A stretch of DNA of 64,000 bases from Planctomycetota bacterium (GTDB taxonomy: Bacteria > Planctomycetota > UBA1135 > UBA2386), in contig JAHBXX010000008.1 in assembly GCA_019636245.1 (NCBI GenBank), forward strand, positions 1-64,000, given 5' to 3'. Under the pieces are notes generated by a model, which worked only from the letters and a program-made list of their open reading frames with translations, was not told the DNA's origin and searched no databases. A program made the position numbers and the translations under genes. This document shows, piece by piece, positions 13,913 through 18,934 of this stretch; the first letter of the stretch is position 1; every line of letters starts with the position of its first letter.

Positions 13913-14308
13913 TCACTCCAGCGCTGCGGCGAGGATCGACTGGATCTTCTCGAGCGCCGAACGGTAGCGCGTCTTGGCCTGCTCGCTCGACTTGACGGCC
14001 ATCACGATGCCCTCGAGCGACCCCTCGAAGCCGGACGGTGCCGCCGCCTTGCGCGGCCGGCCCGGGCCGCGGCCCTTCGGTGCCTTCGGTGCCTTCGGCG
14101 CCTGCTTGGCCCGCGCCGCCTTGCCCTGCCCGCGCGGCGCCGACTTGACGATGCCGAGCAGCGCCTGGGCGCGTCCGAACATGATGGGATAGATCTTCAG
14201 CCGCTTCTTCGCCGCCGCTGCGGCAATGTCGCTGTATTGCGCACCGCGGTCGCTCTTGAGGCTGTCGAGGATGAAGTCCATCGCCGGATTGGTTTTCTTG
14301 GCGGCCAT
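13913..14308 (-). CDS. Small basic AT-hook protein
   Basis: A 131-residue protein in three parts: an N-terminal helical part (AMDFILDSLKSDRGAQYSDI), a Lys/Ala/Pro linker with the repeat KAPKAPKGRGPGRPRKA whose GRPRK (83-87) is a classic AT-hook for minor-groove binding, and a C-terminal helix (QAKTRYRSALEKIQSILAAALE). This suggests a nucleoid-associated or regulatory DNA-binding role. The DNA under the linker carries a short in-frame repeat (GGTGCCTTC-type units near 14080-14100). I start it at ATG 14308 (MAAKKTNP); an upstream ATG at 14341 is possible. The function is an inference from the hook alone. Confidence 0.65.
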   Translation of the reverse strand: MAAKKTNPAMDFILDSLKSDRGAQYSDIAAAAAKKRLKIYPIMFGRAQALLGIVKSAPRGQGKAARAKQAPKAPKAPKGRGPGRPRKAAAPSGFEGSLEGIVMAVKSSEQAKTRYRSALEKIQSILAAALE

Positions 14309-14410
14309 GTGTCGTGTCTCTGGTTCTCGTTGCATTGGCACGCAATCCGCGTGCAGCGCGGCAGTTTGCAGCGAAGGAGGACGATTGGCAAGCTTCGCGA
14401 CGCCAATCCT

Positions 14411-16225
14411 TCACCGGCCGACGGCGCGCACGTCCCAGGATTCGCCCGGGGCCAGCAGCAGGGAGGGCAGCGGCTGCAGGAAGCGCTGCAGGGCATGCAG
14501 GTCGCGCAATCGCATGCGCGGCAGGTCCGGGCGCGACTGACAGACGAACGCGTCGTCGATGGCGATCACCGCGGGCCGCGCCCGCGCTGCAATCGCCGGT
14601 GCCTCCGGATTGCGCGGCGACAGGACCAGCAGGTCGACGCGTTCGACGTCGACCTCGTCGGCGCGCAGGTCGGGCCCCGCCAGCAGCACCGACGGCCCGT
14701 TGGGGAAGGTCAGCACGTAGCTGCACGACCGCGTGACGGTGCCGTCGGGCTGCGGCGACCCCAGCGACCGCACCTGCGTCTGCCCAGGCCGGCCGATCGA
14801 CTGGCCCGGCGCGAGCAGGGGCATCGCGTCCATGGCCACGACCGGCAGGTGGAACACCAGGTGCGTGACGACGGTGCGCGGCGGCTCGGCGCCGAGCATG
14901 CGGACCAGCAGCTGGTCGTTGCGCCTGGTCAGGTCGAGCGGTTGCGTCAGCACGCAGCTGCCGGCCCCGCCCCACAGCCACTCGGCGAGGTCGGCGCCGG
15001 CGGCATCGACCAGGATGCCCGACGATGGCGTGCGCAGCAGCCAGCCGCCCATTGGCAAGCGGAACAGCCGCACCGATCCCGCGGGCACCGGATCCTCGGC
15101 CGCCCGCGACACCGCCTGCAGCCGTTCGCGCCACCAGCTCGGCAGGCCGCGCGCCTGCACGCCGGCGACCTCCCGGACCATGCGCCGGTGGATGCGGTGG
15201 TGCAATTCGACGAAATCGACGCGCGGGAACCGGGCGCAATGGTCGTCGATCTCGTCGAGCAGCAGGAAGCGCGACAGCCCCCCCGCTTCCTCGGGCGCGC
15301 GGCGGCCATCGTGCACGACCGGCGGCAGGCGAAGCAGCCGGCCGGTGAGGTCGTGCCAGTACTCCGCCGGCGGCGCCGCCGGCGCGCGCGGCGACGGCTT
15401 CGGCGGGAACTCCGGCATGCGGCCCTGCAGCGGCGCGGCATCCGCCACCAGCATCACGCTGCCGAGCAGCCCCGGGTCGATCGCCGGCCCGCAGCCGAAC
15501 GTCCAGCCGATGCGCGTCTGCGGCATCGGATCGGTGGTCTCGTCGAAGTCGTTGACGACCACCTGCAGGTCGAACACCAATCCCGCCCGTGCCACCCGGC
15601 GCGGCGGCAGGATCTCGTGCCAGGGGATCATCGCCTCGTAGGTGGTGATGCCCGCCTCCTTGTCGTGCAGCACCACGACCCGCGCGCTGTCGTCGGCCAG
15701 CACGCGCGCAGCGCCGCGCAGCCGATCCCAGTGCACGACCTGGCGGCCGGCTTCGTCGGCCAGCCAGAACTCCCGGTCCTCGCGCCGGCCGGGATCGGGT
15801 CCGAGTCCGCGCGTGTCGCGGTCGGGATCGAACGTCAGCACCACCGAGTCGGCGGCGGGGATCTCGCTCTGCTGCAGGCTGTCGGCGGCCAACGGCCGGT
15901 GCCACTCGTCGCGCACGGCGACGGCGACGTACAGCGCCTGCGGATCCCAGAGCAGGAACGCCACGGCGCCGAGGTCGTTGGGCCCGCGCCAGGCGTTGGC
16001 GGCCGTGCCGGACAGCTGGCGCTGGTCGTCGAGCTGCAGCGCCGGCAGCTCCGGCCAGTCGGTCAACGTGCCGTCGATGGTGATCTCGCGCTCGCCGCGC
16101 GGCAGCACCGCCGCCTGCGGCAGCAGCATCGGCGCTCGCGTCGGGTCGGCGTTCGGCGGCTGTTGCGCGCCCAGCCAGGGCGCGAGGAGCAGCGGGAGCG
16201 GCAGCAGCTTGGACGAGCGGGTCAT
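14411..16225 (-). CDS. Secreted CBM9-like domain protein
   Basis: A 604-residue exported protein. Residues 1-20 (MTRSSKLLPLPLLLAPWLGA) form a signal peptide. Residues 45-220 read as a CBM9/DOMON-like beta-sandwich: ITIDGTLTDWPELP, LYVAVAVRDEWH, ADSVVLTFDPDRDTRG and YEAMIPWHEILPP. The C-terminal half, with SSGILVDAAGADLAEWLWGG and TVVTHLVFHLPVVAMDA, could be a degenerate metallo-hydrolase-like fold, but no HxHxDH motif is present. It lies 79 bases downstream of the signal peptidase gene on the same strand and may be co-transcribed; a small GC hairpin sits at 16237-16251 between them. Confidence 0.65.
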   Translation of the reverse strand: MTRSSKLLPLPLLLAPWLGAQQPPNADPTRAPMLLPQAAVLPRGEREITIDGTLTDWPELPALQLDDQRQLSGTAANAWRGPNDLGAVAFLLWDPQALYVAVAVRDEWHRPLAADSLQQSEIPAADSVVLTFDPDRDTRGLGPDPGRREDREFWLADEAGRQVVHWDRLRGAARVLADDSARVVVLHDKEAGITTYEAMIPWHEILPPRRVARAGLVFDLQVVVNDFDETTDPMPQTRIGWTFGCGPAIDPGLLGSVMLVADAAPLQGRMPEFPPKPSPRAPAAPPAEYWHDLTGRLLRLPPVVHDGRRAPEEAGGLSRFLLLDEIDDHCARFPRVDFVELHHRIHRRMVREVAGVQARGLPSWWRERLQAVSRAAEDPVPAGSVRLFRLPMGGWLLRTPSSGILVDAAGADLAEWLWGGAGSCVLTQPLDLTRRNDQLLVRMLGAEPPRTVVTHLVFHLPVVAMDAMPLLAPGQSIGRPGQTQVRSLGSPQPDGTVTRSCSYVLTFPNGPSVLLAGPDLRADEVDVERVDLLVLSPRNPEAPAIAARARPAVIAIDDAFVCQSRPDLPRMRLRDLHALQRFLQPLPSLLLAPGESWDVRAVGR

Positions 16226-16304
16226 CGGCGGTCGGAGCCGCCCTGGGCGGCGGCAGGGTGGTATGCAAGCAGCCGGCGGCCGCAACCGCACGCACCGGGG
16301 CCGT

Positions 16305-17573
16305 TCACGCCGGCAACCAGCGCAGCCGCGGCCAGGGTCCGAGCACGAACCACGGCACGCCCAGGAAGCTCGACATCGGCACCGCATCGAAGTGGCGGCT
16401 GTCGCGGCTGTCGAAGGTGTTGTCGCCGAGCAGGAACCAGGTGCCGGCCGGCAGGCAGCGCGGCCACTGGCCGCGGTCGCCCGGGAAGCCGGCGATGCGC
16501 TCGCGCCAGTAGAACACGTCGCGGAACACGACCAGGCGGCCGAGCCGCAGCTCCCAGGCGCCGGTGCAGGCGACGTGCACGTGCGTGCGCGGCTCGGATG
16601 GCGCGTCGCCGCGCCGCGACGACGGCCAGTCCGCCTGCCGCGGCCAGACCGCGAGCGCATCGCGGCGGCCGTCGACGAGGAAGAACACCTGATCGTCCAG
16701 CAGGCCGAACTCGATCCGCTGGCGGCCGGTCGGCCGGTGCGGCAACTGGGCGCCGGCCACCAGCTCGCCGTCGCTCCACAGTTCGACCGTGCCGCTGGCC
16801 GCGCGCCAGCACACCGTCAGCGCCTGGTCGCGCGCGTCGATCGTGCCCAGGAACTCGTCGACCGGTTGCAGGAGGTCGAGTTCCAGGCCGCAATCGGCCA
16901 CACCGACGTCCTCGCCGGTGCGGCTGCGCACGCCGTTGGCATCGACGAAGGTGGCGTCCACGGCCCGCGCCGTGCCGGCGAACCCCTGCGGCAGCACGCC
17001 TCCGGCCAGCGCATTGCGGCGTTCCTGCCGCACCGGCGCCGCGAACAGGCCGCGCACCGTACCGGCGCCGTCGCGCAGCGGCGGCAGCACCAGGGCGCTG
17101 CCGGCGGCGACGGTCGCCGAGAGGTCGAGCCCGCCGGCCAGCGCCGCCGCCTCCGCCGGCCATGCCGCCCACCGCACGCGCAGCGCCCGCGCCGCCAGCG
17201 GATCCTTGCGTTCCCTCTGCAGACGCTGGGCGTCGGGCCCGAGCCACAGGTCGCCGCCGCGGATGTCGATGCAGCACGCGTCGACGTCGTCGCCGCGCGC
17301 GGCGAGGCGCTTCACCATCTGCTGCCCCGGCTGCTCCGGATGCCGGACGACGACCAGATCGTGGCGCTGGCGCCGCCGGGCAGCGGCGAGCTTGTCGACG
17401 AACACCACGTCACCGTGCACCGGATCGCCGTGCAGCACCGGCTGCATGCTGCCCGAAGGCACCCGGTAGCGATCGCCGGCGTGCCGGCGCAGCGCCTGCA
17501 CGGTCAGCACCGCGACGGCGGCGACGCACAGCGCGTCGCGCAGCACCGGTGCGAACCGACGGTGGCCGGTCAT
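16305..17573 (-). CDS. lepB: Signal peptidase I with large central insertion
   Basis: A 422-residue membrane protease that removes signal peptides. One membrane segment lies at about 12-28. The catalytic serine is in VPSGSMQP (Ser42) and the general-base lysine in MVKRLAARGDD (Lys88); the conserved box GDNTFDSRDSRHF sits close to the C-terminus, starting near 383. Between about 115 and 350 lies an extra region with lectin-like beta strands (TVELWSDGELVAGAQ, QVFFLVDGRRDALAVW), far longer than the normal spacing in family members of 200-320 residues. Both catalytic residues are present, so it should be active. ATG 17573 is chosen over an upstream start 16 codons earlier because MTGHRRFAP leads directly into the membrane anchor. 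Confidence 0.85.
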   Translation of the reverse strand: MTGHRRFAPVLRDALCVAAVAVLTVQALRRHAGDRYRVPSGSMQPVLHGDPVHGDVVFVDKLAAARRRQRHDLVVVRHPEQPGQQMVKRLAARGDDVDACCIDIRGGDLWLGPDAQRLQRERKDPLAARALRVRWAAWPAEAAALAGGLDLSATVAAGSALVLPPLRDGAGTVRGLFAAPVRQERRNALAGGVLPQGFAGTARAVDATFVDANGVRSRTGEDVGVADCGLELDLLQPVDEFLGTIDARDQALTVCWRAASGTVELWSDGELVAGAQLPHRPTGRQRIEFGLLDDQVFFLVDGRRDALAVWPRQADWPSSRRGDAPSEPRTHVHVACTGAWELRLGRLVVFRDVFYWRERIAGFPGDRGQWPRCLPAGTWFLLGDNTFDSRDSRHFDAVPMSSFLGVPWFVLGPWPRLRWLPA

Positions 17574-17713
17574 CCGCCGCTCCTTTGCGCCCGGCCGCGC
17601 CGTCGGTGCCCGTGGATGCATCGCACCGCCGGGATCATGCAGCGGCCGCCACGGAAGAGAAGGCGGCGTTCGCGGTCTTCGTCCCCGGGGCGCCGGGGCA
17701 TAATGGTCGCCCC

Positions 17714-18934
17714 ATGACGCGCATCGCGGACCTGATCCACGACTGGAACCGTTCGGCGGCCACCTTCCGCCCGGCCCGCCCGCTGCAGTTCGACGACGAG
17801 ACGCTGCGCGACGGCCTGCAGTCGCCGGCGGTCAGCGATCCGCCGCTCGCGGCCAAGATCGACCTGCTCGAGCGCATGGACCGGCTCGGCATCCACACCG
17901 CGAACCTCGGCCTGCCCGGCGCCGGCGGCCGGCCGCGCGAGGACATCCTGCGGCTGGCCCGCCACATCGCCGACCGCCGGTTGCGCATCGGTGCGAACGT
18001 CGCCTGCCGCACCGTCGTCGGCGACATCGAACCGGTCGTCGAGATGACGCAGCAGGCCGGCATCCCGATCGAGGTCTGTGCGTTCATCGGCAGCAGCTAC
18101 ATCCGCCAGTACGCCGAGGACTGGACCCTCGAGCGCATGCTGCAGAACACGCGTGAGGCGCTGACGTTCGCCCGGCGGCACCAGCTGCCGGTCATGTACG
18201 TGACCGAGGACACCACGCGGGCACGGCCGGAGACGCTGCGTGCGCTCTACAGCACGGCGATCGAGCTGGGCGCCCGCCGGCTGTGCGTCTGCGACACCGT
18301 CGGCCACGCGACGCCGCAGGGCGCCGCGGCCGTGGTGCGCTTCGTGCGCGAACTCGCCGACCAGCACGACAAGACCCTCGGCGTCGACTGGCACGGCCAC
18401 CGCGACCGCGACCTCGGCATCGCCAACTGCATGGCGGCGATCGAGGCCGGCGCCGACCGCATCCACGGCACCGCGCTCGGGGTCGGCGAACGGGCCGGCA
18501 ACGCGCCGATGGACCTGCTGCTGGTCAACTGCCGCCTGCAGGGCTGGATCGACAACGACCTCACGACGCTGCCGGACTACGCGGCGGCGGCGGCGAAGGC
18601 GCTCGCGGTCGAGATCCCGCACAACTACCCGGTGCTCGGCACCGACGCGTTCGAGACCGGCACCGGTGTGCACGCGGCGGCGGTGATCAAGGCCTTCCGC
18701 AAGGGCGACGTCGACCTCGCCGACTCGGTCTACTCCGGCGTGCCGGCGCACATGGTCGGGCTGGAGCAGCGCATCGCCGTCGGGCCGATGGCAGGCAAGT
18801 CCAACGCCGCGTTCGTGCTCGAACGTCTCGGAATCGAACCGACCGAGGAACGGGTGCAACGCGTCCTTGCCGCCGGCAAGTCGAGCAAGCGCCTGCTCAC
18901 CGACGGCGAAGTGCGCGCCGCCGCCGGCGCCTGA
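17714..18934 (+). CDS. 2-isopropylmalate/homocitrate synthase family (DRE-TIM)
   Basis: A 406-residue TIM-barrel acyltransferase that condenses acetyl-CoA with a 2-oxo acid. DDETLRDGLQSP (about 29-40) contains the catalytic and metal residues, and WHGHRDRDLGIAN carries the metal histidines; TGTGVHAAAVIKA and VGPMAGKSNAAFVLE are the helical accessory part. The regulatory LeuA dimer domain of full-length (over 500 residue) isopropylmalate synthases is absent, so feedback control by leucine is not expected. Substrate could be 2-oxoisovalerate, pyruvate or 2-oxoglutarate; the sequence alone does not decide. No leucine genes are adjacent. The Hpt gene follows 61 bases downstream. Confidence 0.8.
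   Translation: MTRIADLIHDWNRSAATFRPARPLQFDDETLRDGLQSPAVSDPPLAAKIDLLERMDRLGIHTANLGLPGAGGRPREDILRLARHIADRRLRIGANVACRTVVGDIEPVVEMTQQAGIPIEVCAFIGSSYIRQYAEDWTLERMLQNTREALTFARRHQLPVMYVTEDTTRARPETLRALYSTAIELGARRLCVCDTVGHATPQGAAAVVRFVRELADQHDKTLGVDWHGHRDRDLGIANCMAAIEAGADRIHGTALGVGERAGNAPMDLLLVNCRLQGWIDNDLTTLPDYAAAAAKALAVEIPHNYPVLGTDAFETGTGVHAAAVIKAFRKGDVDLADSVYSGVPAHMVGLEQRIAVGPMAGKSNAAFVLERLGIEPTEERVQRVLAAGKSSKRLLTDGEVRAAAGA

Follow-up and report, generated by a model that had tools for sequence, protein, structure and literature searches.

A planctomycete signal peptidase with an enlarged, probably jelly-roll cap and a linked CBM9-like neighbour

Signal peptidases are commonly regarded as enzymes of general function, and one gene in the window (here the whole 64,000-nucleotide stretch analysed, positions 1 to 64,000 of contig JAHBXX010000008.1 in the Planctomycetota assembly GCA_019636245.1) raises the question what a domain of almost three hundred residues between the catalytic boxes of such an enzyme is, and what it might do. 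A preliminary description of positions 16305-17573, which gave no strand, had taken the insert to be lectin-like, far beyond known sizes and perhaps involved in recognizing substrates or cell wall. The ORF runs along the minus strand, from 17573 down to 16305, and all features of the window described below are on this strand unless indicated otherwise.

The gene and its catalytic core

Judged by family models, Ser/Lys dyad, box E and membrane anchor, the gene encodes a type I signal peptidase (S26) with an enlarged cap, and orthologues agree with this assignment. The 422-aa protein (16305-17573) matched Pfam Peptidase_S26 (PF10502) with E 5.9e-17 (62.6 bits, cut-off 22.9) and NCBIfam sigpep_I_bact (TIGR02227) with a score of 61.8 (cut-off 47). 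The matches to these models fall in two blocks, of which the C-terminal one aligns with the E. coli signal peptidase in the PDB. Ser42, the predicted nucleophile, lies in the box B motif VPSGSM (17448-17450), and Lys88, the predicted general base, in the box D motif MVKR (17310-17312); both are invariant in a three-sequence alignment. Box E, aligned to the E. coli enzyme in the PDB, reads GDNTFDSRDSR (residues 383-393, 16395-16427) and contains Gly383-Asp384-Asn385, Asp391-Ser392 and the next Arg. The preliminary description had called the Ser42/Lys88 pair and the GDN box near residue 383 intact, and the translation has these residues exactly there. The box motifs are conserved among the orthologues listed in the family alignment. 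A single hydrophobic segment (residues 7-30, 17484-17555) is, by hydropathy and family knowledge, a probable membrane anchor; the hydropathy peak of the whole protein is formed by the 19-mers starting at residues 7-10.

The start codon at 17573 is directly preceded by AAAGGAG, and the G+C content of the three codon positions is 0.80/0.56/0.94 in the insert alone, matching the 0.79/0.53/0.93 of the gene, thus the insert is coding sequence. In relatives the protein, insert included, is conserved over almost its full length, with identities ranging from 70% to about 30%, which excludes an accident of assembly or reading frame; codon-position G+C, ribosome-binding site and conservation together rule out a chance or frame artefact. 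Two antisense ORFs on the plus strand (14237-18934 and 15642-17717, up to 1565 codons) overlie the gene. They were rejected as genes: the part lying over the peptidase has mirrored codon G+C, as expected of a by-product of the 73% G+C content.

Size, distribution and fold of the cap

In the window peptidase, Lys-Arg of box D and GDN of box E are separated by 293 residues (measured on the same gene, locus L003). The figure of about 230 inserted residues given earlier fits the part that ordinary enzymes lack. Residues about 98-372 (16458-17282) make up the whole insert, which is homologous to inserts found across the phylum and sits between boxes D and E, where signal peptidases have their variable cap (domain II). 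The E. coli enzyme LepB (S26, PF10502/TIGR02227) has the same plan, with a Ser/Lys dyad, boxes B, D and E, an N-terminal anchor and an extra domain between D and E; the difference is in the insert, which in the window protein has about 290 residues and is probably a jelly-roll, whereas in the E. coli-type chain the two matched stretches lie about 106 residues apart.

Three signal peptidases are encoded in the assembly (4.64 Mb in 89 contigs, 92% complete): contig C8 carries an ordinary one, contig C6 an insert-bearing one linked to lepA, and the third is the window copy. The second, ordinary lepB that the preliminary description had proposed to look for is therefore present, together with a further insert-bearing copy. 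The latter, a 560-aa protein encoded immediately next to lepA and an ABC transporter gene (neighbours named by eye from the translation), shares with the window copy homologous catalytic parts and an insert, with 291 residues between Lys-Arg and GDN. It differs in its neighbours, in its longer C-terminus and in lacking linkage to a CBM9-like gene, and the two copies are 28% identical over the matched stretch. The window copy is not beside lepA and sits between the CBM9-like gene and an HMGL-like gene (the latter named by eye). The same kind of insert and the long extra C-terminus were noted at the locus of the lepA-linked, presumably housekeeping copy (L006; genome G000, contig C6, 44772-45971).

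Of 41 genomes, 39 had a match to the window peptidase at E<=0.001, and in most of the family these included full-length orthologues. A profile made from 39 inserts of non-window copies was matched in 147 of the 149 Planctomycetota genomes sampled; as the profile extends at both ends into the peptidase flank, the weakest of these matches may be to the flank only, and for this reason we also give the number at E<=1e-20, which is 123 of 149 (counted by eye from the per-genome table). The gap between Lys-Arg and GDN was mostly 223-361 residues in insert-bearing copies and 56-155 in ordinary ones. Of 117 loci put through a motif search for these measurements, 44 yielded no copy, and most of these were duplicates or encoded ordinary enzymes. 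The measured phylum loci had been picked for showing the N-terminal half of the family model alone, therefore the frequency of the insert is taken from the 149-genome search. Of the other inserts, 39 of 44 were aligned (the second copy of L082, L095, the first copy of L104, L107 and L110 were left out because of doubtful borders), and of the window-type inserts 24 of 25 (in L016 the motif search had picked a wrong site). Two insert-bearing signal peptidase genes lie within a few kilobases of each other at L082, L086, L091, L097 and L112. No relatives were found in viral contigs.

These observations show that an insert-bearing signal peptidase is a habit of the phylum and not an oddity of the window gene. 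The length survey suggested by the preliminary description thus found the large insert widespread across Planctomycetota, and the claim that its size is far beyond that known does not hold: such a size is normal in this phylum. The signal peptidases of Chlamydiae and Bacteroidetes are long as well. Variation in the size of domain II among family members, without conserved motifs, is already on record in a paper on SipA (PMC4049620).

Evidence on the fold comes from profile comparisons. Window-type and other phylum inserts are homologous (hhalign 99.4%, 240 columns), and the phylum insert family aligned with PF06439 (3-keto-disaccharide hydrolase, DUF1080) over 161 columns spanning the whole domain (hhalign 96.4%, E 1.2e-9) and with a LamG profile at 70.2%; the controls gave 0.1% for CBM9 and at most 0.6% for 30 column-shuffled templates. 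For the templates, 30 loci per family supplied 26 LamG, 23 PF06439 and 19 CBM9 domains, the PF06439 domains coming from the same phylum as the inserts. In the PDB, profile matches of the phylum family were led by galectins (E 8e-4), followed by the LamG domain of sex-hormone-binding globulin. The window family's own insert profile reached only about 2% against each of LamG and PF06439, so the jelly-roll assignment depends on the phylum family as an intermediate. Consistent with this, a PDB profile search with the window insert family alone returned two meaningless matches only, a Pfam search with the window insert found no family at E<=1, and among the 24 window-type inserts four Pfam families appeared with one member each, none of them for the window insert. 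The 39 phylum relatives gave sub-threshold Pfam matches to Gal-bind_lectin (two members), Laminin_G_3 (one) and 3keto-disac_hyd (one, E 0.049), alongside 16 further families matched by a single member apiece and the S26 flank, matched by 17. Unlike PF06439 proper, the window insert has no direct match to this family above the Pfam cut-off, and none of its conserved motifs was seen in the insert when the alignment was judged by eye.

Structure prediction with AlphaFold from three sequences failed for the full-length protein (pLDDT 30) and for residues 200-372 gave an all-beta model of nine strands and no helix, at low confidence (pLDDT 42, pTM 0.40). This model had 1061 PDB matches at E<=10; the 50 listed were nearly all galectins, CBM66 or jelly-roll glucanases, and none of those listed reached E<=0.001. 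Taken with the profiles obtained via relatives, the last about 170 residues of the insert (residues about 200-372, 16458-16976) are likely, if not proven, to have a concanavalin A-like fold of the galectin/LamG/PF06439 kind. The lectin-like character proposed earlier is thus upheld at the level of profiles, by way of the phylum relatives, and the structural model agrees with it weakly.

The CBM9-like partner and the history of the paralogue

The gene downstream of the peptidase (14411-16225), which starts 79 bases after the peptidase stop, encodes a 604-aa secreted protein whose N-terminal domain is CBM9-like. The window copy of this partner matched CBM9_1 with E 1.7e-4, which is below Pfam's cut-off, and 22 of 23 members of its family matched at E<=0.1, so that the secreted CBM9-like neighbour noticed in the preliminary description is real. 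The only PDB profile match was to xylanase A (1i82, E 0.18), and the signal peptide looks ordinary by eye. About 300 residues are conserved in the C-terminal half, for which no Pfam or PDB match was found; the invariant His455 and Asp437 hint at a further domain there, perhaps derived from an enzyme.

Peptidase and partner are adjacent in all 22 loci of relatives inspected. The pair is part of a wider conserved block reaching from purF to a sugar isomerase. With so much of the neighbourhood retained together, two genes may be adjacent without being a functional pair. Co-occurrence was determined in 81 genomes of the order, with thresholds of E<1e-60 for the partner (29 genomes) and E<1e-20 for the window-type insert (28 genomes; these E-values include genomes whose rows built the model). 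Both genes were present in 28 genomes, the partner only in one (G026), the peptidase only in none, and neither in 52; as the 81 genomes are related, these counts do not represent independent events. The two genes stand side by side in all 28 genomes that have both, one of which (G224) has its peptidase matches split over two contigs and a single stop codon within one fragment. Some families that have the pair include genomes without it (G014; G029 and G225), which is consistent with joint loss. What is new here is that in this order the window paralogue is tied to a downstream secreted CBM9-like gene.

In a tree of 68 of the 69 copies (L016 left out), the 24 window-type copies are separated from the rest by a branch supported at 100/99. 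Two copies of family f8 (L110 and L114) sit beside this branch, and L228, which is the same gene as L114, has an HMGL-like gene nearby (by eye), as in the window. From this position the paralogue may be older than its CBM9-like partner. Nor is the partner general, because the probable second insert-bearing copies of f8 adjoin genes other than the CBM9-like one. A sigma-factor-like ORF was seen by eye directly downstream of the peptidase, on the same strand, at L231, L232 and L233 (f8), i.e. in three of six second-copy loci inspected (five of f8, one of f5).

Possible role of the cap

The reading that we prefer, and to which we would give about an even chance, is that the window copy serves as an accessory signal peptidase, with a jelly-roll cap that biases it towards certain clients, first among them the CBM9-like neighbour. 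One N-terminal helix would anchor the enzyme, and Ser42/Lys88 would cleave signal peptides outside the membrane. The cap, i.e. domain II between boxes D and E, would be enlarged by a concanavalin A-like jelly-roll common to the insert-bearing signal peptidases of the phylum; placed beside the cleavage cleft, it would touch part of the emerging mature protein, and certain clients would be favoured in this way. The paralogue and the secreted CBM9-like protein would form a two-gene unit with the latter as first client, and bulk processing would be left to the lepA-linked and the ordinary signal peptidases. A dedicated pair of this sort is SipW-TasA of Bacillus subtilis, in which SipW is termed archaeal-like (PMC10269814); the likeness is that an additional signal peptidase serves one particular secreted protein, a relation which for the window copy we infer.

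The main rival, somewhat less probable in our estimation, is that the cap has no client role: the elaborated domain II would be a phylum-wide inheritance that keeps the enzyme stable or tethers it to the membrane or translocon, and the paralogue would be a redundant general peptidase. This would account for an insert that almost all sampled genomes of the phylum have, regardless of the neighbours, and that is present also in the lepA-linked, presumably housekeeping copy, and it would suit a domain II that varies in size without conserved motifs (PMC4049620). It is at odds with the window-type copies forming a single branch, and redundancy poorly explains why peptidase and partner are jointly present or absent in 80 of 81 genomes. 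Rather improbable is the earlier proposal that the jelly-roll functions as a carbohydrate-binding module and would dock the enzyme on envelope polysaccharide or glycan. The profile matches, and those listed for the model, do include galectins, LamG and CBM66, and the neighbour has a CBM9-like domain, but no sugar-binding residues were identified in the insert, and the PF06439 motifs are apparently not retained in the alignment as judged by eye. Concanavalin A-like folds, furthermore, often do not bind sugar. The conserved pairing with a CBM9-like protein fits client recognition better than wall binding. That the protein is a catalytically idle or regulatory member of S26 is hardly credible, with Ser42, Lys88, GDN and the box E Ser/Asp all present and the box motifs conserved among the orthologues listed.

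Client selection by the cap, the reading that we prefer, can be extended to the whole phylum, although we regard the extension as unlikely: Planctomycetota would early have swapped a small cap for a jelly-roll recognition domain, and copies would have become dedicated peptidases, each tuned to an adjacent secreted client, amounting to an undescribed substrate-selecting system.

Type I signal peptidases and jelly-rolls are each known, and their combination as a phylum-wide cap is new. No description of a jelly-roll or large insert in planctomycete signal peptidases was found in open-licence full text, and one may exist elsewhere; such an insert was not found in the available parts of PMC2881027, PMC12758564 and PMC4049620, nor were related terms in PMC9360617, PMC12984324 and PMC2259416. 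For the biology of these bacteria the findings mean that long signal peptidases of planctomycetes are normal, neither fusions nor errors, and that the window gene is ordinary within its phylum, nearly every sampled genome having such an enzyme. A jelly-roll cap found throughout a phylum, together with one copy tied to a partner, would allow testing whether the cap selects substrates.
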